Of a stretch of DNA of 24,107 nt, positions 2,855 to 22,991 are shown one piece after another. The notes beneath the pieces are model-generated. The model searched no databases and was not told where the DNA came from. It saw only the letters and a program-made list of their open reading frames with translations. The position numbers were made by a program, and so were the translations under genes. Source of the DNA: a virus. How positions within the stretch are numbered: position 1 is the first letter of the stretch; every line of letters starts with the position of its first letter. The stretch covers positions 1 to 24,107 of IMG/VR virus record IMGVR_UViG_3300009466_000018; one strand, 5' to 3'.

Positions 2855-3277
2855 ATGAAGTTCTCGAAAGACAACCAACCACTACGGGAGATCACTCGAT
2901 GTCCCAAATGCGACACACCCGCTTTCTGTGTTCTTGAGACCCGCTCAAACAGAGATTACATAAGGCGTAGAAAGCACTGCAAAGAATGTAAGCATCGTGC
3001 CACCTTCTACGAAATCTCACAGGAGAAGTACCACCAACTCGAAGAAGACTCTAGGACTCTTCATCGTTTGCTCGGTCATCTACAAGAACTCGTAACGGGC
3101 AGAGGTGAGCCGATTGGCAAAGTTACAGTTCCAAATAAAGTTACGATCCCGTGCGATCAATGCGACCATGCGAACAGCGGTAGATGTTCGTTCGATTACC
3201 CTGAGGCGTTCACACCAGAAGCATACGATTGCTCTATGTTTATAGAAGAGTATAAGAACGCAAATCTGGTTAAGTGA
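2855..3277 (+). CDS. NrdR-like zinc-ribbon protein, 140 aa
   Basis: Residues 16-53 reproduce the zinc ribbon of NrdR, the repressor of ribonucleotide reductase genes: C16-x2-C19, then VLETR, I-R37-R38-R39, C42-x2-C45 and TFYE. NrdR normally continues into an ATP-cone domain of about 90 residues; that is absent here. Instead a helical linker (54-80) leads to a second cysteine cluster, C100-x2-C103, C111 and C126, which may bind another metal. The protein is therefore a DNA-binding ribbon on a different scaffold. It may mimic NrdR at host nrd operators without nucleotide control, or be a generic phage regulator. Start: the first ATG after the hairpin at 2824. Confidence 0.75.
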   Translation: MKFSKDNQPLREITRCPKCDTPAFCVLETRSNRDYIRRRKHCKECKHRATFYEISQEKYHQLEEDSRTLHRLLGHLQELVTGRGEPIGKVTVPNKVTIPCDQCDHANSGRCSFDYPEAFTPEAYDCSMFIEEYKNANLVK

Positions 3278-5532: not shown

Positions 5533-5741
5533 TGGACCGAAAAGTTTACGTATTCAAAACAGACAACGGATATCTTTCAGACGTTGACCATTACACAACG
5601 GACGCAACACGAGCCGTTTCCTTTGTTGATTTCGATTCAGCGGCTACACGTCTAGCGGCAGTCATCGGCGTAATTAACAGACCAATCTCAATCGAAGAAG
5701 TCTCACTGCCTTTTCCTCTTCCGTTTCCTAAGCAACTCTGA
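5532..5741 (+). CDS. hypothetical 69-aa protein within the MoxR-VWA operon
   Basis: The gene overlaps the upstream stop (TAATG) and the downstream start (TGATG), so its reading frame is fixed by both neighbours. A GGAG at 5517-5520 is one of the few Shine-Dalgarno-like sites in the window, though its 11-base spacing is long. The product begins MDRKVYVFKTDNGYLS, a short beta-rich fold, and ends in a proline/phenylalanine tail (FPLPFPKQL) that could dock on a partner. No family recognised; the coupling implies a role with the ATPase and VWA proteins. Confidence 0.65.
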   Translation: MDRKVYVFKTDNGYLSDVDHYTTDATRAVSFVDFDSAATRLAAVIGVINRPISIEEVSLPFPLPFPKQL

Positions 5742-6928
5742 TGAACGACCAACTCTTCGGCAAACTTCAAAACTTTCGTGGTGCACTCAACGCTGCCACG
5801 CTCGAACGCGAGCATGTAATCGACGGGCTGCTCGCTTCCGTTATCTCGAAACAGAATGCCTTCTTGCTCGGTGCTCCGGGTACAGGTAAGAGCGATCTGG
5901 TTCGTAGTGTCTGCAAGGGTATTGCAGGCGCAAACTACTTTGGTTATCTCCTGACACCTACAACAGATCCCAGTGAGCTGTTCGGTCCTGTCGCAGTAAC
6001 CAAACTACTTAAAGATGAGTACACACGAGACGTTGATGGTTACTTGCCCTCGGCTCACATTGGTTTCCTCGATGAATTGTTCCGCAGTTCCTCTGCGATT
6101 CTTAACTCACTTCTCTCGCTGTTGAACGAACGTACATTCAACAACGGCAATCAAGTTATCGAAACTCCGTTGCAGTCGATCATCGCTGCGACAAATAGTT
6201 GGCCTCAGGAAGAATCGCTCCAAGCTTTCGCAGATCGATTCCTGTTCCGTCCGACTGTAGAGATGCTGAAGAAGCCTGTGTCTAAGCGGACACTCGATGA
6301 GTGGGCTTTGGGCATCGAAGACCGCCCACAGGTTGGCGAGTTTCTGACACTCTCCGAACTGAAGGAGATTCAGGAAGCCGCTAAGAAAGTGAAAGTATCT
6401 GACGACTTTCTAGATAAGTTTAATTCTGTGTGGCAGATGCTGTCACAACGCAGCATCACGATCTCCGATCGCCGCCGCGTACAGATCCTCAAGTTCCTTC
6501 GAGCTTGGGCAATCGTTCAAGGTGATGAGGAACTCTACCCTGAGCACATGCACAACAGTCTCGTACACATTGTGTACAACGATCTAGAAGATCAAAGCAC
6601 TATCATCGAAATCCTGGAGCAGGAGGTTCCCACGGCGGAGCGGCTGTTCGCTGATGCAAAGCGGGCGGCAAGCGGAATCATGACTGAGTTTGCAGCGCTG
6701 CGCTCGCGTCAACAGCAGAACAACATCAGTTCATTGAACGATCTTGTCGTTCATCTCCGTAAATACCATAAGGATATGAACACGGTTAAGGACAAAGTGG
6801 ATGAGCTTCTCGATGGATCTAGGATTCGCATGAGCATGGCCGTCCGATCCCGAGCCGTGAAACTATCGCAAAACCTTCAAAACAACTGCGACACAATCGC
6901 TCAAGCCCTCAACGAAATCACTCACTAA
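5741..6928 (+). CDS. RavA-like MoxR-family AAA+ ATPase, 395 aa
   Basis: A complete AAA+ module: Walker A GAPGTGKS (44-51), the RavA-type segment YFGYLLTPTTDPSELFGPV (66-84), Walker B FLDELF (109-114, D111/E112), the hallmark helix AILNSLLSLLNERTFNNG (119-136), sensor 1 ATNSWP (150-155) and arginine-finger candidates in DRFLFR (165-170). MoxR ATPases remodel or activate protein complexes, usually with a VWA-domain partner, and the partner is the next gene. The DELF...LLNER signature is closer to RavA than to CobS-type MoxR proteins found in cyanomyoviruses. The C-terminal 130 residues are helical and may be the substrate or VWA-binding arm. The start is at a TGATG overlap. Confidence 0.95.
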   Translation: MNDQLFGKLQNFRGALNAATLEREHVIDGLLASVISKQNAFLLGAPGTGKSDLVRSVCKGIAGANYFGYLLTPTTDPSELFGPVAVTKLLKDEYTRDVDGYLPSAHIGFLDELFRSSSAILNSLLSLLNERTFNNGNQVIETPLQSIIAATNSWPQEESLQAFADRFLFRPTVEMLKKPVSKRTLDEWALGIEDRPQVGEFLTLSELKEIQEAAKKVKVSDDFLDKFNSVWQMLSQRSITISDRRRVQILKFLRAWAIVQGDEELYPEHMHNSLVHIVYNDLEDQSTIIEILEQEVPTAERLFADAKRAASGIMTEFAALRSRQQQNNISSLNDLVVHLRKYHKDMNTVKDKVDELLDGSRIRMSMAVRSRAVKLSQNLQNNCDTIAQALNEITH

Positions 6929-6930
6929 TC

Positions 6931-8481
6931 ATGGATCTCCAGAAGAACTCTGAGTTTGTTCGTCTTGTAAACAACGAGCCACTGACCCTAGTGTGCTCCG
7001 CTCTCGCAGACTTCCTTTGGGAAGATTTCGTCCGCGACACAAAACCTAACGTCACCTACCTCGTTAACACTTACAACATCAAACAACTCTCTAGGTTCGG
7101 TAAGGAGGTATTCGAGCGCCTGTACAGCGCCGACGAAGTTAAGTGGCTGATCAGCGATGAGGACTTCGAGCAGTACTTTAGAGAAATCTGTAACGGTGAT
7201 ACTACTGCGACACCTAAGGGCTACAAGCCAGAGAACGCTATCTGGTATTCGATCATGGGAGATCTTTCCCAAGCTGCTGCGTGGCCCACGCTGCTTCAAC
7301 GTTGCGTGGGCGAGCAGTTCAACTCCGGCAACAACGCCGTTCGAATTCTCAACGAGATCTCAAAAGTTATCGAGGAAGCAATCCAACAAAACATGTTCGA
7401 TGTCCAGCTCCTAGTAGGTGCAGGGGACCAACTGCAACAACTAAGAGACCAGTACAACAAAGCTGTACAAGACGGAGACAAAACTGCAGCGAACGAAGCT
7501 CGTACACAAGGTAAGGAGCTCGGACAGAAGATACATGATGCCCTGCAGAATGTGAAATCTCAAGTTCAGGCAGAAGCCAACACGATCGTCGATAAAGTTC
7601 TCGGCGAGAGTGACGAACAGAACGAAGAGATCAGCAACTTGTTCGGTTCAATGCCTGGCAACGGCAAGATGCTGAGCGATCTGCAAGAGAAGAAGAACCT
7701 AGCTAATCGCTTGAGTCGGAACAAAACTCTTAAGCAGATCGCTAAGAAACTCGGTGCACTGCGACGGGTATGGACTGAGCGTAAACGAGCCAAACCTGCA
7801 AAATCCAATTACGAAGCAGTGACCGGCGCAAAGTTCAGCGACAGCGTGATCAACGCTTTCCCCACGGAGCTCGCGCTGGCTGGTTCTAAGGAAGGTCAAG
7901 CTCTCTTTGCTCTCAAGTACTCCCAGAAAACAATCCTCACCAAAGACTACACAGCATCCAGAACTGACTTAGGTTGCGGTCCTGTGATCATGTACGTCGA
8001 TGTCTCGGGATCGATGCACGGCGACCTGGAGCTCTGGAGCAAAGCAATCGCCTTAGTTATCTCCGAGCAGGCACTGACTGACAAGCGCTCTGTTCACATC
8101 CACCTGTTCGATACGGTCGTGGGACACAGTGTTGAGGTTAAGAGTGGCACACCTAACACGAAGGAACTGATCGACTTCGTTGCAGGCTGGACTCTCGGTG
8201 GAGGTACAAGCTTCAATGCGGTTCTCGCGCATATGGTGAGCCAGAAGGAAAGTCTGAAAAATTCCGACATTCTGGTTCTCACTGACGGGAACTCGGAGGC
8301 AAGTTCCTCGTGGATTTCACGGATAGACAATTTAAAACAAGAAACCGGCGCACAAATTACTACAGTGTGTCTGGATATGTCCGTACCTGAAGTATGCAAA
8401 CAGTTCAGCGACGAAACGTACTCAGTAGATACATCCAATAACATCGATTCAATCGATGTAATCCAGAAGTGCATCCGATGA
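6931..8481 (+). CDS. ViaA-like von Willebrand factor A protein, 516 aa
   Basis: The C-terminal third (about 350-515) is a VWA domain with a full MIDAS: D357-V-S-G-S361, T426 in GGGTSF and D452 in VLTDGN. Before it lies the ViaA-type region: a helical segment with a coiled coil (165-225), LKQIAKKLGALRRVWTERK (267-285) and the FPTELALAGSKEGQALFALKY block (310-330). This matches the LPSE-L...L arrangement of E. coli ViaA, the partner that stimulates RavA. It starts 3 bases after the ATPase stop codon, so the two form an obligate pair in one operon. The role is inferred to be substrate recognition through metal-dependent binding. The target is unknown. Confidence 0.93.
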   Translation: MDLQKNSEFVRLVNNEPLTLVCSALADFLWEDFVRDTKPNVTYLVNTYNIKQLSRFGKEVFERLYSADEVKWLISDEDFEQYFREICNGDTTATPKGYKPENAIWYSIMGDLSQAAAWPTLLQRCVGEQFNSGNNAVRILNEISKVIEEAIQQNMFDVQLLVGAGDQLQQLRDQYNKAVQDGDKTAANEARTQGKELGQKIHDALQNVKSQVQAEANTIVDKVLGESDEQNEEISNLFGSMPGNGKMLSDLQEKKNLANRLSRNKTLKQIAKKLGALRRVWTERKRAKPAKSNYEAVTGAKFSDSVINAFPTELALAGSKEGQALFALKYSQKTILTKDYTASRTDLGCGPVIMYVDVSGSMHGDLELWSKAIALVISEQALTDKRSVHIHLFDTVVGHSVEVKSGTPNTKELIDFVAGWTLGGGTSFNAVLAHMVSQKESLKNSDILVLTDGNSEASSSWISRIDNLKQETGAQITTVCLDMSVPEVCKQFSDETYSVDTSNNIDSIDVIQKCIR

Positions 8482-12472: not shown

Positions 12473-13270
12473 GTGGCCGTACGTCGCCGTCCTTCGTATG
12501 GATTTGATCTAGCAGGAGAGGCATTCGGGTTTCGGCCCGAAGTCGGCGTATCGAAACGCGCGTTATCTCAACTATTCCCTGAGTTGGGCTTAGCTACAGA
12601 TTTTACGAAAGAAACACAACCGGAAGAAGTAGAGAAGGACGAAACAATTAAAATTAAAACGCCGACGACAGAGACAGATTATTTCAGAGACACACAACTG
12701 AGTAGCGATAAAAGATCACAGAGACCTTCATTTAGAAGCGAATACACTGAAAAATCCTCAAGGTATGCACCTCCGTTAAGCGAAAGATATACTACAACGA
12801 CACAACAAGTGAGTCCTTCCGGGCCACAGGGGCGTGGAGCAAGTAAATTAGGATACACTCCCTCCGTAGCTTCTTCCGCTTCTCCTAACGTTCCTGCACC
12901 GATAACTCCGCCGACCCCTCAAACAAGTCCCTCCACGCCTCCAACGTCAACACCGGAGTACTACGCCCAAGTGCCCGCGCCGCCGCTAACCCCAACGCCT
13001 ACACCGAGTCCAGCGCCGCCCGCAGAACAACCTCGTCGTCTTTCTTTAGATGATATTTCTCATAAGTATGGGCAGTTCTCGACTTTTGGTCATAGGGATT
13101 ACCAAGCAGCAAGAGACGAAGGATACTCAGATGCTGAAATATTAAATTACTTGAATGAAGATATGAGACGACTGCACCCAGACAACAGACCAGGGGGATC
13201 AGCAGGGTTGTACGAGGAAATAATGAGAGGCAGCGTTGACTACTCGAAAGCGGTTAACATAGTGCGATAA
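12473..13270 (+). CDS. proline-rich probable virion protein with MAVRRRPSYGF tag, 265 aa
   Basis: The GTG start at 12473 is supported because the 5' sequence (GTGGCCGTACGTCG...) and the first 16 residues (MAVRRRPSYGFxLAG) are repeated in the gene at 13334. After this tag comes a low-complexity polar region, then a Pro/Thr/Ser-rich linker (about 139-190), then a folded C-terminus (FGHRDYQAARDEGYSDAEILNYLNED) of a helical A-x4-G-x-S-x3-I type that I associate with virion proteins of marine cyanophages. A structural or ejected internal role is inferred. The disordered linker suggests a tether. No Shine-Dalgarno is visible. Confidence 0.7.
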   Translation: MAVRRRPSYGFDLAGEAFGFRPEVGVSKRALSQLFPELGLATDFTKETQPEEVEKDETIKIKTPTTETDYFRDTQLSSDKRSQRPSFRSEYTEKSSRYAPPLSERYTTTTQQVSPSGPQGRGASKLGYTPSVASSASPNVPAPITPPTPQTSPSTPPTSTPEYYAQVPAPPLTPTPTPSPAPPAEQPRRLSLDDISHKYGQFSTFGHRDYQAARDEGYSDAEILNYLNEDMRRLHPDNRPGGSAGLYEEIMRGSVDYSKAVNIVR

Positions 13271-14909: not shown

Positions 14910-15698
14910 ATGTTTATCGCTGGTGATTTTTCGGAATCCGAAATCCTCTGCAACATTCCGCCTCACACTCTGCGTATCGATCTTCAAGCTCGCCGCTGGA
15001 AGTCTGACGTTGATCCCGACAACGCCATCGTAGATCGCAACGACAACGGTATTCCCATTGAGTTCATCCTCATTGGGTTCACACCGTACTTCGGAAACCT
15101 CGGTATGCGTAACCAGGAGGAGTTTCTCCGTATCGCGTACATCGGTGTGTCTCCCAACCACAGGTTGCTCCCGCCCCGGTGCGTCACGACCTCGATGATC
15201 TCTGGCAAGTCCAGCCAGAAGAACTTCATCGCGTACTTCCAGACCCTGTATAACAACCGCATTAACTGTGCGTCTGTTATTACTTCAACCAAGTTCGTGA
15301 CTCGCTCCTTCAACGAGCGCGATCCGATGACCGGTGCTGATGGGGCGAAGATCAACTTCAACTGCCTGGACTTCAGCGACCGCCCTGCTCAAAACGACGA
15401 AGAGGAAAAGCTCCTCAAAGACGTGTCCCAGTGGCTGGCCGCAGACGGAACAGGTCTGGCAGCGAACGCACTGAAGAGCAGCATCCCTGGTGCTGACTTG
15501 ATCGAACTGCCTCTGGGTAGCGATCATGCTGCACTCAAAGCTGAGTTTGCAGCCACGCGGGGTCAAGCTCCTGAGCGCACGTTTGCTGCACCCGAACCCG
15601 AAGCTAAAGCCTTGAAGTCTGCTGAACCTCCTTCTCCTAAAGGAAAGAAGGTTGAGCTAACCGAAGAGCAAGCAAAAGCACTCGGGATCGATTTCTGA
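14910..15698 (+). CDS. SSB-associated hypothetical protein, 262 aa
   Basis: I do not recognise the fold. The N-terminal 170 residues are beta-rich with several aromatic strands (FILIGFTPYFGNLGM, FIAYFQTLYNNRI), followed by a helical segment, a Pro/Ala/Lys-rich linker (about 205-245) and a short terminal helix ending KALGIDF. That ending echoes the IDFSL tip of the preceding SSB-like protein, and the linker-plus-tip layout suggests it too contacts a partner in the replisome. It starts 12 bases after the SSB stop and is closed by a terminator, so the pair is one transcription unit. Recombination mediator or second ssDNA-binding protein are reasonable guesses. Confidence 0.7.
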   Translation: MFIAGDFSESEILCNIPPHTLRIDLQARRWKSDVDPDNAIVDRNDNGIPIEFILIGFTPYFGNLGMRNQEEFLRIAYIGVSPNHRLLPPRCVTTSMISGKSSQKNFIAYFQTLYNNRINCASVITSTKFVTRSFNERDPMTGADGAKINFNCLDFSDRPAQNDEEEKLLKDVSQWLAADGTGLAANALKSSIPGADLIELPLGSDHAALKAEFAATRGQAPERTFAAPEPEAKALKSAEPPSPKGKKVELTEEQAKALGIDF

Positions 15699-15725
15699 GC
15701 TAACGTAAACACGAAGCCAAGACCG

Positions 15726-15752
15726 GCGGTCTTCCTCGGAAGGCCGCTTTTA
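15726..15752 (+). terminator. intrinsic terminator
   Basis: GCGGTCTTC-CTCG-GAAGGCCGC is a 9-bp stem with one G-T pair and a CTCG loop, followed by TTTTATT. It ends the SSB transcription unit. The ATG of the next gene begins two bases after the T-tract, leaving no room for a promoter and ribosome-binding region, so the next gene probably depends on read-through. Confidence 0.85.
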
Positions 15753-15754
15753 TT

Positions 15755-16144
15755 ATGTACCTCAACTGCATCTCAACAAAAATAAAACAAGATGGTGAAT
15801 GGATTTGCCTCTTCGTAGAAGACGTAGGGTTCGCCTACAACGTGGGTCTCACGATTCACAAATCGAGACGTGCGGCGAACGATTGGTATCGAAACCGCAA
15901 GAACAAAAGAGCTCGCTCAGTCCTCACTAAGCAGAGACCCCGCTCATTGGCCACCTTACGTACAGCACTGGACATATTAAAGATTCACGTAGAAGTTACG
16001 ACCGCTAAACCCCTCATGATTATGCCCAGCACAGAGCGAACCGCTGCCTTAGCTAAGTACCTCAAGCGGCTGGGGTTTCAGGAACATCGACAGGATGAAC
16101 AACTTCTCTACTTGCTAATAACTCATCAAACGCCGGAAGAATGA
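15755..16144 (+). CDS. hypothetical protein, possible acetyltransferase-like fold, 129 aa
   Basis: The ATG sits directly after the terminator T-tract, and no alternative in-frame ATG exists before residue 88, so this start is likely despite the odd position. The N-terminal half is strand-rich and then very basic (HKSRRAANDWYRNRKNKRARS). The C-terminal half, with PLMIMPSTERTAALAKYLKRLGFQ, resembles the last strand-helix-strand unit of GNAT acetyltransferases, where the LGF follows a helix, but the acetyl-CoA binding loop is not visible. Its 3' end overlaps the antisense NblA-like gene by 83 bases. Confidence 0.55.
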   Translation: MYLNCISTKIKQDGEWICLFVEDVGFAYNVGLTIHKSRRAANDWYRNRKNKRARSVLTKQRPRSLATLRTALDILKIHVEVTTAKPLMIMPSTERTAALAKYLKRLGFQEHRQDEQLLYLLITHQTPEE

Positions 16145-16319
16145 CTTTGTTCCGAGCGCACCACGAGGCGAGGCTGGAAAACAATCGTTTATTGATTAAG
16201 GATTGCTTGTGCACCATCTCAAGAATCTGAAGGAGTCCATCCTTATCCAGCTTCTTAGCGTCCATCATCACACGCTTATGTAAAAATTCTTGCTCTTGGC
16301 TCATCCAATCGAGTTGCAT
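16062..16319 (-). CDS. NblA-like phycobilisome degradation protein, 85 aa
   Basis: Translated on the minus strand. Residues 5-53 (MSQEQEF, then MMDAKKLDKDGLLQILEMVHKQ and NKRLFSSLASW) align without gaps to NblA: L-S-x-E-Q-E-F at the start of helix 1, L at the turn, and the Q....R-LF/Y-xx-L helix 2. NblA tags phycobilisomes for Clp proteolysis in cyanobacteria and is carried by some freshwater cyanophages. The last 30 residues extend beyond typical NblA (about 55-65 aa). It is the only minus-strand gene between 68 and 21600. An alternative is a helical protein of unrelated function, as identity is modest and concentrated in EQEF. Confidence 0.6.
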   Translation of the reverse strand: MQLDWMSQEQEFLHKRVMMDAKKLDKDGLLQILEMVHKQSLINKRLFSSLASWCARNKVILPAFDELLASREVVHPVDVPETPAA

Positions 16320-16408
16320 ACCGCTGGAGCTGCTTCCTCAACGTTAATCACAAAAGCGGTCAGCGCTCAAGCTGTTTGCTAAGCTCCACACATTCTTCCG
16401 TTTTACGC

Positions 16409-16963
16409 ATGGCATCGTTTTACACAATCCCTGAAGGCGTAACGCATCAACTGATCAAACACAGCTACATCCAAGGATCAGTATTAGTCCCATATGATCC
16501 GGACGATACTCTGAGCAACCAGCTCCGAGCGCACAACCTCACAGTCACGACGAACAAGGATACTGATAACTTGGTTAACCCGATCTGGTGGACGACCATG
16601 CGGGACAAACAATACGACTGGGTTATCGCCAATACAACAGGTATCAACGATTACAGCGAGTACATACTTGACTACGGCATTCAAGTTGCTAAGGAAGGCA
16701 TAGCAGTGCTTGATCGACTTTCATTTATCGAACCGGTCACGAAGCGTAGGAACTTCCTGCTGTCGAACAAGCTGTCGAACATGATCATCTTGTCGCCACG
16801 GCCTCGCTTCAGCTCGGTCAGCGCGTCTCGTGATTCGGTCACGAGTTGCTGGTTTGTCTTTCAGCGTCCGGATAAGTGGATGGATGGCACACACGTGTCA
16901 TACGCTGTAAATTGGGACGCAGCTCAAACGCTCCCTCCCCTCGATGACATCGCAATCAAGTAA
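16409..16963 (+). CDS. degenerate N6-adenine methyltransferase-like protein, 184 aa
   Basis: The ATG at 16409 is preferred to an upstream TTG at 16376. The C-terminal half keeps the skeleton of phage-type DNA methyltransferases: YDWVIANTTG (69-78, where NPPF is expected), a helix, GIAVLDRLSFIEPVTKRRNFL (97-117), MIILSPRPRF (125-134) and DSVTSCWFVF (142-151). The catalytic NPPF/Y is NTTG, and the SAM-binding glycine loop is replaced by VPYDPDD (27-33), so it is probably inactive. It may retain DNA or protein binding, e.g. an inhibitory decoy. No Shine-Dalgarno. It overlaps the next gene by 20 bases. Confidence 0.7.
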   Translation: MASFYTIPEGVTHQLIKHSYIQGSVLVPYDPDDTLSNQLRAHNLTVTTNKDTDNLVNPIWWTTMRDKQYDWVIANTTGINDYSEYILDYGIQVAKEGIAVLDRLSFIEPVTKRRNFLLSNKLSNMIILSPRPRFSSVSASRDSVTSCWFVFQRPDKWMDGTHVSYAVNWDAAQTLPPLDDIAIK

Positions 16964-17300
16964 ACTTGAGAAGTTCCAGCGTGCTGTGTGCGATAGGTTA
17001 GATAAGACGAATGAAAAACTCGATCGGGTTATTGCCTTACTGGTATCAGCACAGCTCCTCGAAGAGTGCGTCTCCCCCGAGGGAGAGATCCGCGATGCCC
17101 AACAGTGCGCGGAGATTGTTGTTGAAAGTTATTCAGCAGGTCTTTGCCTCACCGAAGAGTTGACGAGCCGCACTCGGGATATCGAATACCAAAAATCCGA
17201 GTTCTTTGTAGATGAGGACGAAGATGAGGAAGAAGAGGATGATGATAGTGATGAAGATGATGGTCCCGAGGAACCTCGACTTTTCTCGATGGCGTTTTGA
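16944..17300 (+). CDS. acidic-tailed hypothetical protein, 118 aa
   Basis: The start is inside the end of the preceding gene, with a 20-base overlap. Residues 5-45 form a charged helix or coiled coil (KLEKFQRAVCDRLDKTNEKLDRVIALL), residues 50-85 are helical, and residues 90-110 are almost purely Asp/Glu, encoded by GAT/GAA-rich repeats at about 17210-17275. The tail ends with a short aromatic tip (PRLFSMAF). Acidic tail plus hydrophobic tip recalls SSB or DNA-mimic proteins that bind replication or restriction proteins; this is inference. It lies just before the nuclease gene. Confidence 0.65.
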   Translation: MTSQSSKLEKFQRAVCDRLDKTNEKLDRVIALLVSAQLLEECVSPEGEIRDAQQCAEIVVESYSAGLCLTEELTSRTRDIEYQKSEFFVDEDEDEEEEDDDSDEDDGPEEPRLFSMAF

Positions 17301-17339: not shown

Positions 17340-18116
17340 GTGTCCCAAACACGACTTACTCTCAACGGATTACGTCATTACAGATGTGATGGTGTTGATG
17401 TTCCGCTTCCTTCCGTAACGAGCGTTCTTTCTGCCACGCAGACCGAAGAAACACGTAAGAAGTTAGCTCACTGGAACTTAGCTAACCCCGGCGCCGCCGA
17501 CATGGCGGCAGAGAGGGGCACATGGATACATAACAGCGTAGAGAATCACATTAGAGGCTTAGTGGTAAATCCTCCCGCTCAATACGCTCCTTACTGGAAG
17601 GATGTACCTGAAAAAGTCGACGAACTCTTAGAAGGCGGTCGCGTTCTGTGGAGTGAGAAGCCATACAACAAACCTGAATGGCACAAATATGTCGGTGAAG
17701 ATGGCGTGGGTCGTCTTCACTTTTACGATCCGATCAAAGCTCAGGGGTACGCGGGGTGCCCTGACATCATCTACCAGGACGGAAATGGCGAGTTAATCCT
17801 GGGTGACTTCAAGACCAGCAACGGTCCCTACAGTTATAAATTCCCCAGCTCGAAGGTCGAGATGGAGGACAAACTCCGGAAGGCTCTCGTCTCTGGAGTT
17901 TTTAAATTGAAGAAAACGAAGCTGCAATTAGCTGCTTATACAATCGCAGCGGAAGCTTGCTTAGGCATCAAAATCAACAAAACTCAGATCATCGTAAGTA
18001 CCGCAGTTCCTGAATTTTCTGTTCAAGTATTTACTTTTGGACCCGAGGATTTAAAAAAAGACAAACAAATGTGGTTCGAAGTCTTACGTAAGTTTTATGA
18101 GACTCGTCTTGAATAA
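17340..18116 (+). CDS. RecB/Cas4-type PD-(D/E)XK exonuclease, 258 aa
   Basis: Motifs of the PD-(D/E)XK superfamily in order: GTWIHNSVE (60-68, H64), the motif I/II pair GCPDIIYQ (139-146, D142) and LGDFKTS (154-160, D156-x-K158), and motif IV KLQLAAY (194-200, Q196 and Y200). This is the layout of Cas4/RecB-like and phage recombination exonucleases. It probably processes DNA ends during replication-coupled recombination or degrades host DNA. It starts with GTG, has a hairpin 3 bases upstream, and is followed by the primase-helicase. No C-terminal iron-sulphur cysteines of Cas4 are seen. Confidence 0.88.
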   Translation: MSQTRLTLNGLRHYRCDGVDVPLPSVTSVLSATQTEETRKKLAHWNLANPGAADMAAERGTWIHNSVENHIRGLVVNPPAQYAPYWKDVPEKVDELLEGGRVLWSEKPYNKPEWHKYVGEDGVGRLHFYDPIKAQGYAGCPDIIYQDGNGELILGDFKTSNGPYSYKFPSSKVEMEDKLRKALVSGVFKLKKTKLQLAAYTIAAEACLGIKINKTQIIVSTAVPEFSVQVFTFGPEDLKKDKQMWFEVLRKFYETRLE

Positions 18117-18136: not shown

Positions 18137-18191
18137 CCCCTGCACCCACGCGGGGATCCGTGGCACAATGGCTCTGCGCAGGGGAACCATG
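18137..18191 (+). promoter_or_regulatory. nested hairpin covering the primase-helicase ribosome-binding site
   Basis: CCCCTGC (18137-18143) pairs with GCAGGGG (18178-18184), enclosing a second stem CCACG/CGTGG (18146-18150 with 18159-18163). The right arm contains the AGGGG Shine-Dalgarno of the ATG at 18189. The first ATG, at 18168, lies within the loop. It is the only clear Shine-Dalgarno in this part of the genome and would be masked by the stem, suggesting translational control. Confidence 0.45.
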
Positions 18192-20948
18192 CTTTTTTTC
18201 TACTCCAAAAATCAAAAAGTTCGTCAATTTGTAAACCCCAAAACTGGAAAGATAAATCCAGGTGGAAACTTCAGATCATTCAATGAAAACTGGGAAGCGT
18301 CAGAAGGAGACGCCGAGACGATCGCCAAGGCCACGGCTGCCGGTGACGGTCTCTGCGCGTGGCATCTGGTAAACGGTAAAAGGGTTAAAGATTCGACCGG
18401 CACAATTAAAGCTGGTCTGGTGATTATCGACATTGATAATCAAGCAGATCACAAAGATGAGAATGGAAACAAAGTACAAAAGCAAGAGCTAACTGTAAAA
18501 GAATCGCTGGAGCTAGATATATGTAAAAAATACCTCAGCTTCGCGTATTACTCGCCAAGCACGACACCCGAGTGGCCCCGCTTCCGTCTCGTCTTTGGAC
18601 TCGAAAGACCCATTGTCGACCCAGATCTCTACCAGTGGTTCGTACGGGAGATTGCTGAACAGATCCCTGGTTCAGACCGGCGAGCAACCCAAGCTGTCAA
18701 CCTGTTCTACGGAGGTAAGTCCGATCAGGATTTGATCTGCTGGTCACACAAATACATACCGGTCTCAAAAATCAACGAGGGTCTGCAGGCTTACAACCTG
18801 ATTCCAAAAGAAGTCAAGCGAGACGACGACCCAACGGAGGCGCTGGAGATCGACACCACGCCGGATGGGATCGACGTTGGGAATCTGCTGAGCTCTTCGG
18901 TCAGATCGATGCTGGACGGGGCTCCAGTGGAGGATCGATCCTTCAGCATGACGGTCGCCCTGAAGGAGCTGATCGGCTGGGCCAACTGGCTCGGGGCGAA
19001 CGAGCTGCCGATTAAGCAGCAACCCCTTGACATGGCGCACCAAATATTCGAGAATATCTACGAGTACGACCCAGCCCTCGATGGCAAGTTCAACCGGATT
19101 CTCGGAAGCATCTCCGACGCGTCCACGCTGCTGCCCGCTGTCGCGATGGCGTCCGAGGATGGCGAGTCCGCCCCATGGAAAAAGATAAAATATGTAGACC
19201 GGGCTCTGTTCGATAGCAAGTGTCCCGACACGATCAAAGAACAAATCAAAGCTAAAAAACCAAAGCCGAGTAACTCGATCCTGAGCATCGAAGACTTCGA
19301 GATCGAAGCGACTCCCGAACCGACATCGACATTAACAGTCACAGAAGATCCCCCCGAAATGCCCTCCACTCCTCAGACTCCTGCGCAGTTAGTTCAAATT
19401 CAGAACAACAACAGGCAGTTCTCCGAAAATGACATAGCCGAAATCATCGTAAGTAATTACGGTGACAGCTTCTTATTTGATTCCAGTCTGGACGAGTTCT
19501 TTACCTACGACAACGACGAAGGTATCTGGTATCTTAACGACGAACAACATATCAAACGGCGCATCGTAAGCACTCTGGATACATTCATCCAAGCGGGTGT
19601 TCTGCCACGCTACAACTCGGCAACCGTTAACTCGGTGTTTCAGCTGTTGAAAGCGAAGCTGCTGCGCTCAGTTCGGGGCGGGCGCTCCTCGATCTGGCAG
19701 ACCAACCGTGGAAAGGTTGCCTTCGAGAATGGTGTGCTTGACACCAAGACTCTGGAGTTCAAGCCTGGGAATCATAAAGACATGTATTTCCAGACCAAGC
19801 TTGCATTCCAGTACGGCGAAGATCCCAACTGCCCGAAGTTCATCAACTGGTTGGAGTGGGCAGTCGGTGCTGACAAGGTGGTGATCATCCAGGCATTCTG
19901 CCGGGCTGTACTGACGGGATATACAACAGGTGAGAAGTTCCTGCACCTGATCGGTGCTGGTGGTTCCGGTAAGTCCACGCTGCAGCAGATCCTGATTGCT
20001 CTGGCTGGCTTCACAGGCACACATACATCTGACCTGGAAACGATTGAGACGAACCGTTTTGAAGCTCACAGCTTGATCGGTAAGCGCCTACTGCTCCTGA
20101 CAGACGAAGCTTCATTCAGCAAGCGTCTCGACACGCTCAAGAAACTGACGTCAGCTTCCGACACTCTGCGAGCTGAGCGGAAATACGGAACCCAGATCAT
20201 TAACTTCAAGCCCGAGCTGCTGGTCTCGATTGCTAGTAACGAGCACATCAGCTCCTCTGACATCAGCAGTGGTCTGGAGCGTCGGCGCCTCACCATCGTC
20301 ATGAACAACGTTGTGTCGCCCTCGAAGCGCCGCAATCTGATCAGCGTGTTCCCGGATCGCGTGGAGGGTGAGCTCGCCGATGAGTTGCCGAACATCGCAG
20401 CGTGGTGCCTGTCGATGGACTTCGACAAGATGCGCGACACACTGGCGAACCCGGTGAAGTACTGCCCGGATCTCAACACGACCAACATCGAAGCTCTAAT
20501 CTTCAACAACCCAATCGTGGCGTGGCTGTCCGAGTGCACCTTGTACGCACCGAATAGCCAGACTCCTCTCGGCGGCGGTGCATTCCGCCCCACCATCGAC
20601 GAACAGGAGCGAGGTCTCTACGTCAAAAACGCCAATTCAGAAATTTACGCGTCGTATGCAAACTTCGCTAAGTCAAACGGTTACAAGGCTGCAGCAAAGC
20701 CACGCTTCGTCGATCGTCTGAAGGAGACCGTTAACAATGTGCTCAAGATCCAAGGCATCGAGCCTAAGTTCATCAACGGCAAGGCGGTGATCAAAGGGCT
20801 TCGTATCAAGCCTTACGACCCCTCGACTGATCGAGCTGCTGCGGGTGACAACAGACTGCCATCCCCGGTAGAATTCGTCGCGAACCCCTCACTGTGGGGC
20901 GCAGCATTCCAAGCCCACGATCCAAATCCCGAACAAGAATCCAAATGA
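18189..20948 (+). CDS. AEP primase - SF3/D5-type helicase fusion, 919 aa
   Basis: The N-terminal 240 residues are a primase-polymerase of the AEP class: AGLVIIDIDN (D81/D83 metal ligands), YYSPSTTPEWPRFRLVF, and the NLFYGGK segment. A linker with an acidic and proline-rich stretch (to about 420) precedes a D5-like domain and an SF3-type helicase: Walker A GAGGSGKS (589-596), Walker B LLLLTDEASF (D639/E640), and the motif SNEHISSSDISSGLERRR. It should unwind the fork and lay down primers for the polymerase. Start at 18189 is preferred to 18168 because AGGGG lies 4 bases upstream. The stop overlaps the next start (ATGA). Confidence 0.92.
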   Translation: MLFFYSKNQKVRQFVNPKTGKINPGGNFRSFNENWEASEGDAETIAKATAAGDGLCAWHLVNGKRVKDSTGTIKAGLVIIDIDNQADHKDENGNKVQKQELTVKESLELDICKKYLSFAYYSPSTTPEWPRFRLVFGLERPIVDPDLYQWFVREIAEQIPGSDRRATQAVNLFYGGKSDQDLICWSHKYIPVSKINEGLQAYNLIPKEVKRDDDPTEALEIDTTPDGIDVGNLLSSSVRSMLDGAPVEDRSFSMTVALKELIGWANWLGANELPIKQQPLDMAHQIFENIYEYDPALDGKFNRILGSISDASTLLPAVAMASEDGESAPWKKIKYVDRALFDSKCPDTIKEQIKAKKPKPSNSILSIEDFEIEATPEPTSTLTVTEDPPEMPSTPQTPAQLVQIQNNNRQFSENDIAEIIVSNYGDSFLFDSSLDEFFTYDNDEGIWYLNDEQHIKRRIVSTLDTFIQAGVLPRYNSATVNSVFQLLKAKLLRSVRGGRSSIWQTNRGKVAFENGVLDTKTLEFKPGNHKDMYFQTKLAFQYGEDPNCPKFINWLEWAVGADKVVIIQAFCRAVLTGYTTGEKFLHLIGAGGSGKSTLQQILIALAGFTGTHTSDLETIETNRFEAHSLIGKRLLLLTDEASFSKRLDTLKKLTSASDTLRAERKYGTQIINFKPELLVSIASNEHISSSDISSGLERRRLTIVMNNVVSPSKRRNLISVFPDRVEGELADELPNIAAWCLSMDFDKMRDTLANPVKYCPDLNTTNIEALIFNNPIVAWLSECTLYAPNSQTPLGGGAFRPTIDEQERGLYVKNANSEIYASYANFAKSNGYKAAAKPRFVDRLKETVNNVLKIQGIEPKFINGKAVIKGLRIKPYDPSTDRAAAGDNRLPSPVEFVANPSLWGAAFQAHDPNPEQESK

Positions 20949-21921: not shown

Positions 21922-22291
21922 CTTTGCTCTCCTTAATGTGGTCAGCTACGATCTCTTGGAGATAATCCATAACACACTGTTTCTTAGCTGCAGCTAGATT
22001 AACCAGATGCCAGTAGTCTTGTGTAGGTAGATCAACACTGAGGAGAGTACGAGACGATCCAGGCGTGGTGATTTCGTAAACAGGAGATTTAGGAAGTTCA
22101 TTTGGAAAAAGTTGATTGCAAAGTTTTGCAATACGCTCCGCTTTAGAAGCGCAGTGCTTGTACTCATCAAAAAGCGTGGTCTTAATGAGCTCCGCAAGGG
22201 AGTTACAGATTTCTTCGTCGTCTAAACAGGCATAAAGACGATCTGTAAAGAAATCAATTGTGCTTTCACGCTGTTTTTGTTCATCAAACAT
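21914..22291 (-). CDS. hypothetical helical protein, 125 aa
   Basis: The frame stays open to 22360, but the ATG at 22291 (MFDEQKQRESTIDFF) is preferred because upstream extension lies inside thyX, and this ATG overlaps the thyX stop by 8 bases, the same overlap seen downstream. The product is mostly helical with four cysteines and a segment rich in Leu/Ala, ending ...VDLPTQDYWHLVNLAAAKK and a charged tail. No family recognised. Function unknown. Confidence 0.6.
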   Translation of the reverse strand: MFDEQKQRESTIDFFTDRLYACLDDEEICNSLAELIKTTLFDEYKHCASKAERIAKLCNQLFPNELPKSPVYEITTPGSSRTLLSVDLPTQDYWHLVNLAAAKKQCVMDYLQEIVADHIKESKDV

Positions 22292-22991
22292 GTTGCCAGC
22301 CCTCCAAACCGCTGGTAGTAGAAGAGGACTCCACGAGTGCTTCGTGGATGACCGGCACACATTCTGCCAGAATTTCTCCGATTTGCTTGGCGATCACCCT
22401 GTGTTCGAGCTGTGTGTCAGGGCGAGCACGCAAACCGACATAGAAAATCCAATCCCGGAGCGTACCTTGCATGTGTAAACGGGTAGGGGAACACATTGGC
22501 AGAATCTTTCGGGCGCACTCCTTAGCCACGCCGCTCTGAAGCATCGCCTCGTATATCTCTTGTATATCCTTGTAGACCTCGTGGATGCGTTCCTTCAGCG
22601 AGTCTTTAACTTCCCCATCAGGGAAGGGCAAACTGTTTTGACGGTTTTTAAAATCTTGTGCTCGCAGATCAAAGTCCCAGCACTTGTCATTCAGTGACTC
22701 TAGGATATCTGTAGGATCACTGTACCTCTGGGAAAGCTCTTGGAAGTGGAAAGCCCTGTGTCTAATTATCTGCGCACTGATAGCACGAGAAGTGCAGATG
22801 CTGAATGATGCGCACACCTGCTCATAAACAGACCAGTGACCGTGCTTAATGCAGTACTTTAAAAGGTTCTTGTACTCTTCGCGCTTGGGGTTCTTTGTGC
22901 TGACACGTGCGTGCTCGGATACCACGGCTTCTGCGTGGGGCGTGATCCAATCAAGTGACGCGAAGTGAAGGTCAGTTACTTGTGTCGACAC
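22284..22991 (-). CDS. thyX: flavin-dependent thymidylate synthase ThyX, 235 aa
   Basis: Converts dUMP to dTMP using FAD, NADPH and methylene-tetrahydrofolate. The ThyX signature RHR-x7-S is present (R77-H78-R79 to S87, followed by QRYSD). It is preceded by the HGHWSVYEQV segment (H52), with C-terminal LRDWIFYVGLRARPDTQLEHRVIA providing the dUMP/FAD-binding arginines, as in functional ThyX. Length is typical of the family. Start is a GTG at 22991, nested by 20 bases in the end of the upstream 58-aa gene. It supplies dTMP for phage DNA synthesis. The absence of other nucleotide genes here is not evidence of their absence in the genome. Confidence 0.95.
   Translation of the reverse strand: MSTQVTDLHFASLDWITPHAEAVVSEHARVSTKNPKREEYKNLLKYCIKHGHWSVYEQVCASFSICTSRAISAQIIRHRAFHFQELSQRYSDPTDILESLNDKCWDFDLRAQDFKNRQNSLPFPDGEVKDSLKERIHEVYKDIQEIYEAMLQSGVAKECARKILPMCSPTRLHMQGTLRDWIFYVGLRARPDTQLEHRVIAKQIGEILAECVPVIHEALVESSSTTSGLEGWQHV

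Follow-up and report, generated by a model that had tools for sequence, protein, structure and literature searches.

Genomic context of a minus-strand ORF in a putative cyanophage

The stretch of DNA analyzed here (the window) is the whole of IMG/VR virus record IMGVR_UViG_3300009466_000018, which is 24,107 bp in length. On its minus strand, positions 16062..16319 contain an ATG-to-stop ORF of 85 aa, supported as a gene by its relatives and its dN/dS, which we refer to as N1 and which is NblA-like. The genes flanking N1 (14910-15698, 16409-16963, 16944-17300, 17340-18116, and 18168-20948) are all encoded on the plus strand, as the initial annotation had observed. The 3' end of N1 shares 83 bp with the 3' end of a small convergent ORF (15755..16144, plus strand), while on its other side an 89-bp divergent intergenic stretch (16320..16408), containing blocks conserved within the clade, separates N1 from the next plus-strand gene. 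This divergent neighbor (16409..16963) has a partial match to the phage DNA methyltransferase family phrog_799 (5e-8), and the conserved neighbor on the opposite side of N1 (14910..15698, plus strand) is of unknown function. A further plus-strand gene (16944..17300) is followed by an exonuclease (17340..18116, plus strand; phrog_298, 2e-24) and, in the same module, by a D5-type primase-helicase (18168..20948, plus strand). The plus-strand genes of the window also include a family A DNA polymerase, a MoxR-vWA pair, and an SSB-like protein. Since polymerase, SSB-like, exonuclease, and primase-helicase genes are all present, it was correct to label this a replication region. The accompanying suggestion that the opposite orientation of N1 reflects separate regulation was not borne out, as no sigma-70-like promoter was found in the divergent intergenic stretch (16320-16408).

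Several other features of the window were recorded as well. A terminator-like 10-pair stem with a T-rich tail lies at 15725-15748, between the 14910-15698 and 15755-16144 genes. The MoxR AAA ATPase gene (PF20030, 2.4e-54) and the vWA-domain gene that follows it occupy 5741-8481, with the second of the two found again in 39 loci. The gene at 12473-13270 exhibits 27-47% identity among relatives, while some of its neighbors exceed 90%, and it is apparently either fast-evolving or swapped. A ThyX-like thymidylate synthase is, like N1, encoded on the minus strand (22284-22991). The gene at 2855-3277 encodes a zinc-ribbon protein similar to the N-terminal part of NrdR, a repressor (PF22811, 28.7 bits).

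The window also encodes a member of the cyanophage family Kyano_Gp96 (PF23790) at 1460-1807 (2e-29). This family was present in 15/30 records, and both G085 and G096 carry it twice. Judged by exonuclease, thymidylate synthase, and primase, the nearest isolate is Synechococcus phage S-EIVl, with identities of 36% for the exonuclease, 42% for ThyX, 28% for the primase, and 24% for the polymerase; unlike the phages described here, S-EIVl has neither N1 nor the second NblA-like gene N2 (see below). Kyano_Gp96 and the S-EIVl-like replication genes agree with the cyanophage setting that had been proposed for this DNA, and the host is probably a Synechococcus-like cyanobacterium. The photosynthesis gene psbA was found in 0/50 records, many of which are fragments, and this decides nothing either way. 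At least in the 2017 table for the S-EIV1 group (PMC5332604), hli and ptoX are listed, while nblA is absent.

N1 is a conserved and invariably inverted core gene

Over three search rounds, relatives of N1 were recovered from 28, 56, and then 78 viral loci. Among 13 sequences from the window's clade, N1 codons 1-56 had a pS of 0.705 and a pN of 0.045, with a pooled dN/dS of 0.022. The same 13 sequences gave a dN/dS of 0.179 for codons 58-78, where N1 and the convergent ORF at 15755-16144 share their DNA. The 83-bp overlap of the N1 3' end with a plus-strand ORF is what one might expect if N1 were simply a chance antisense frame rather than a gene. However, this explanation is refuted by the coding constraint, because the dN/dS of 0.022 was obtained from the codons outside of the overlap; it also conflicts with the presence of N1 in all 77 testable loci described below, even where identity falls to ~35-40%. 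Accordingly, we consider a chance frame to be extraordinarily improbable.

The orientation of N1 was tallied in a set of 126 loci, which include re-fetched records and the window's own locus (L029) and contain 53 distinct ORFs. Outside of L029, N1 was opposite in strand to the counterpart of the 16409-16963 gene in 125/125 loci in which this neighbor was found and opposite to the counterpart of the 14910-15698 gene in 124/124 loci. For a test with a starting point other than N1, loci were chosen by exonuclease, with a bait alignment built from N1-bearing phages; of the 378 relatives of this enzyme, the best 80 were used. Among these best 80 of 378, both neighbors were present in 77 loci, and N1 was located between them in 77/77 and inverted in 77/77, being retained down to ~35-40% identity. 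The remaining three of the 80 loci have one neighbor each: N1 is present in two, and in the third (L360) the record stops 632 bp before the exonuclease, short of the expected place of N1. With opposite strands in 125/125 and 77/77 loci, the inverted orientation that had been pointed out from the window alone is a fixed feature. In this widespread and uncultivated cyanophage lineage, N1 is a core gene that lies inverted.

Sequence kinship between N1 and NblA

Cyanobacterial NblA is a ClpC adaptor for phycobilisome degradation; it is a helix-loop-helix protein of ~60 aa, and its dimer forms a four-helix bundle. The initial annotation had claimed that N1 resembles the NblA core and had proposed a search with the NblA family profile PF04485, which has a curated cut-off of 25 bits, as a means to check this. 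For the window copy alone, the resemblance falls below every threshold: it has no Pfam hit, and PF04485 has no hit in the window record or in the clade to which it belongs (0/13 records; G001-G013). L001 encodes the same protein as the window N1; a cyanobacterial NblA profile gave it 6.4 bits and rank 95 of 15,023 distinct ORFs. A separate count, in which 11/1,116 background ORFs scored at or above the window copy, includes N1 and N2 copies and was set aside.

The initial annotation had named the lack of a significant NblA profile hit as a refuting outcome; this outcome applies to the window copy by itself and was overturned only through the relatives of N1, for which the resemblance holds at the level of the family. 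PF04485 matched 11/16 aligned N1 members and was their commonest Pfam hit, the best being L067 (1.8e-5, 25.5 bits). When nine N1 proteins were scanned, three of which were among the earlier 16, PF04485 hit seven and missed two, with one over the cut-off (L321, 29.7 bits). Thus, two distinct members (L067 and L321) exceed the cut-off, while most members lie below it. Among 50 related records, 26 had a PF04485 match in a search at E up to 10, with all listed matches having E <0.004 and 2 exceeding the cut-off. NblA itself exceeded the cut-off in 58/146 cyanobacterial genomes. Alignment of 51 N1 with 42 cyanobacterial NblA sequences by hhalign yielded a score of 29.8 and a probability of 78 (81 in reverse) over 54 columns with no gap, and 0/100 column shuffles reached this score (best shuffle 22.1). 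Within the exonuclease-picked loci (best 80 of 378), the cyanobacterial NblA profile placed N1 at every one of ranks 1-29 among 8,820 distinct ORFs, with the first other ORF at rank 30. As these loci were picked by exonuclease, this result is free of PF04485 selection.

In the reciprocal direction, searching 386 cyanobacterial genomes with an N1 profile produced three hits at E up to 0.01. The strongest is itself an NblA, with a PF04485 score of 66 bits, while another sits in a 6,621-residue frame and is probably due to chance; no N1-like gene was recognized with this profile in the 386 genomes. The closest cyanobacterial match to N1 was one of two tandem divergent NblA genes of a cyanobacterium (L330; G127:C1:4091000-4091600). 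In sequence searches of the PDB, the NblA structure 3cs5 aligned with N1 ungapped over the whole core at an E of 0.15, below three summed weak R2D2 hits. Other candidates were rejected: the thioredoxin and R2D2 matches from the PDB searches were partial or weak pieces summed, and the DUF4158 and PHROGs matches were partial with E above 0.001. No homologue was found by tblastn of N1 and two of its relatives against isolated phages (listed hits had E of 1 or worse), and a scan of genome contigs for N1 found none. The ~46 alignable columns of the family are too few for a tree. Judged by sequence, and as established at the family level through its relatives, N1 is apparently a remodelled descendant of NblA. 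We regard it as an NblA-derived variant rather than NblA proper, because the window copy lies under the profile cut-off and lacks the NblA C-terminal end.

N1 retains the N-terminal motif of NblA but not its C-terminal end

AlphaFold2 predicts two N1 helices (mean pLDDT 73.2, pTM 0.41, 36 sequences), helix 1 at residues 8-23 (16251..16298, minus strand) and helix 2 at residues 26-56 (16152..16244, minus strand), the latter of which includes LFSSL and resembles NblA. The motifs named in the initial annotation are all present, with SQEQEF at residues 7-12 (16284..16301, minus strand) as the counterpart of the NblA N-terminal motif, L24 at the turn, and LFSSL at residues 46-50. We tallied 77 distinct N1 sequences, which were pooled by a pattern that itself demands E, and F or L, in the motif. 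Within SxEQxF, F is present in 77/77 and Q in 75/77, and H is present two residues on in 77/77. Elsewhere, the turn L is found in 72/77, the post-core C in 74/77, and the P of the LP pair in 75/77. When N1 and cyanobacterial NblA were compared by segment, the N-terminal motif gave a z of 4.0 and helix 2 gave z values of 3.2 and 2.9, while the rest of helix 1 exhibited only a weak likeness (z 1.4). After the core, N1 is unlike NblA (z -1.9), with WCARN-V-LP--ELL in N1 versus KHxWGL in the NblA set. The C-terminal extension that had been singled out from the window is real, with conservation over approximately half of its length (residues 53-68); in the alignments, this segment (W53-L68, WCARN-V-LP-F-ELL; 16116..16163, minus strand) replaces the NblA C-terminal end. 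Foldseek searches of the PDB did not return NblA with either the first N1 model (pLDDT 57) or the second, nor did VIA-align with the second model, but these negatives say little because the query is a lone hairpin, which makes a poor query.

The N-terminal motif of NblA has been reported to bind ClpC (PMC4103541), and its C-terminal end has been reported to bind phycobiliproteins. Thus, N1 retains the reported ClpC-binding end and has swapped the reported phycobiliprotein-binding end, an exchange that may alter what it binds. Since the reported phycobiliprotein-binding end of NblA is missing, which the initial annotation had overlooked, the usual cargo is less certain for N1. As one end of NblA is kept and the other exchanged, the question of which end chooses the cargo becomes directly testable.

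A second NblA-like family in related phages

The PF04485 scan of the 50 records also identified a second place in five of them, as well as a non-N1 place in G046. These places form a family, which we refer to as N2. Its five distinct members (L116:5983-6234, L118, L119, L120, and L121; consensus LTLEDEFVLTRIR-KA-SL-KERD-YLW...CRERAYK) have PF04485 as their best hit with E of 0.003-0.035, all under the cut-off, and N2 is encoded in at least 80 viral-contig loci (L122-L201). N1 is present in 18/50 N2 records and in 10/11 of those longer than 70 kb, while N2 is present in 7/35 N1 records, including all 6 that are longer than 50 kb. Related phages of 72-88 kb carry both genes, which lie ~30 kb apart in G032. 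The window record has no N2, but its length is insufficient for a conclusion. The N2 of L116 is located in the tail module, between minor-tail-like and peptidase-like genes, and a structural role is therefore possible. Compared with cyanobacterial NblA by hhalign, N2 scored 24.3 versus a shuffle maximum of 20.0. A direct hhalign comparison of N1 with N2 was not significant, and their kinship is suggested by the resemblance of each to NblA. Because N2 was first found via PF04485 hits, its high ranks with the NblA profile in the 15,023-ORF set are partly a matter of selection. A tblastn search of one N2 against isolated phages found no homologue (listed hits had E of 1 or worse).

Proposed function of N1

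Our working interpretation, which we hold with slightly more confidence than doubt, is that N1 is a phage-specific remodelled NblA descendant that sends the phycobilisome to the host Clp protease and has a changed cargo-binding end. N1 would be made while the phage infects a cyanobacterium, probably a Synechococcus-like one, and would fold as the NblA two-helix hairpin, with the hairpins presumably forming a dimer. The kept N-terminal motif would dock N1 on the host ClpC chaperone, and phycobilisome proteins, putatively gripped by the changed C-terminal surface, would be brought to the Clp protease. As a result, amino acids would be freed and light absorption lowered, which may benefit the phage. 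In this sense, we infer that N1 may cause degradation of the antenna, as the initial annotation had suggested, by acting through host Clp.

Two other interpretations were considered. N1 could be a small two-helix protein without kinship to NblA that serves the replication module, such as a regulator or a replication accessory, and its likeness to NblA would then be convergent. The fixed place of N1 among replication genes, the absence of a profile hit in the window's clade, and the failure of Foldseek to find NblA would all suit such a protein, and short helical proteins do yield weak chance matches. Even so, we judge convergence to be quite unlikely, given that the match spans the complete NblA core without a gap and outscores every shuffle, two members are over the curated cut-off, N1 occupies ranks 1-29 among the 8,820 ORFs of the exonuclease-picked loci (best 80 of 378), and the search of 386 genomes returned a true NblA reciprocally. 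Alternatively, N1 could derive from NblA and still recruit ClpC, while its new C-terminal module delivers a different protein of the host to Clp, such as a defence, polymerase, or photosystem factor. This would fit an N-terminal motif that is kept (z 4.0) next to a post-core part that departs from NblA (z -1.9) but is conserved among N1 proteins, as well as a gene whose fixation in the replication module (77/77; best 80 of 378) makes it resemble a core gene more than an optional metabolic one. However, no alternative cargo is known, helix 2 is still NblA-like (z 3.2 and 2.9), and adaptation to a host-specific phycobiliprotein could equally explain the change, which makes a change of cargo seem rather unlikely to us.

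A broader and more speculative proposal, which we consider unlikely, is that, throughout this lineage, NblA has become a core adaptor made of two parts, with N1 and N2 aiming host Clp, jointly or early versus late, at chosen proteins beyond or instead of the phycobilisome. N1, from the replication module, would be the ClpC-docking half with a new cargo end, while N2, from the tail module, would contribute the helix 2 signature. 

Most accounts of phage NblA treat it as a metabolic gene that is optional and derived from the host. The remodelled form described here is a core gene of a widespread lineage, in which related genomes add a second NblA-like gene. With one end kept and the other exchanged, N1 hints that reprogramming of host Clp by phages may occur.

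Comparison with known NblA systems

N1 shares with cyanobacterial NblA (PF04485; 3cs5) an ungapped two-helix core, the SxEQxF motif, L or M at the turn, and the helix 2 pattern. It differs in its length of 85 rather than ~60 aa, with a core of ~54 columns, in the replacement of the KHxWGL end by WC..LP..ELL, and in a window copy that scores below the profile cut-off. NblA has been described from phages before, and N1 is a further, remodelled variant. In several cases, expression of phage NblA from other lineages has been reported to cause phycobilin loss or bleaching (PMC9602691). Like the N1 phages, Ma-LMM01, MaMV-DC, PaV-LD, S-SCSM1, S-TIM5, cyanopodoviruses, and uncultured marine cyanophages carry an NblA-related gene, but they belong to other lineages and have the gene in other places, and S-SCSM1 is the only one whose sequence was compared here. 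Its published NblA, 54 aa in length, went unmatched by PF04485 in a search at E up to 10 and serves as a yardstick. In the literature searched, which included PMC7760959 and PMC9837993 but few subscription papers, there was no report of nblA in S-EIV1-like phages or of two NblA-like genes in one phage.

A cyanobacterial parallel does exist for the presence of two such genes, as in Synechocystis, going by the title of a 2014 study by Baier (cited in PMC7966870), NblA1 and NblA2 reportedly form an essential heterodimer. The phage N1 and N2 are far more diverged than the Synechocystis pair and lie ~30 kb apart in G032, yet like that pair they are two different NblA-type proteins in a single genome.
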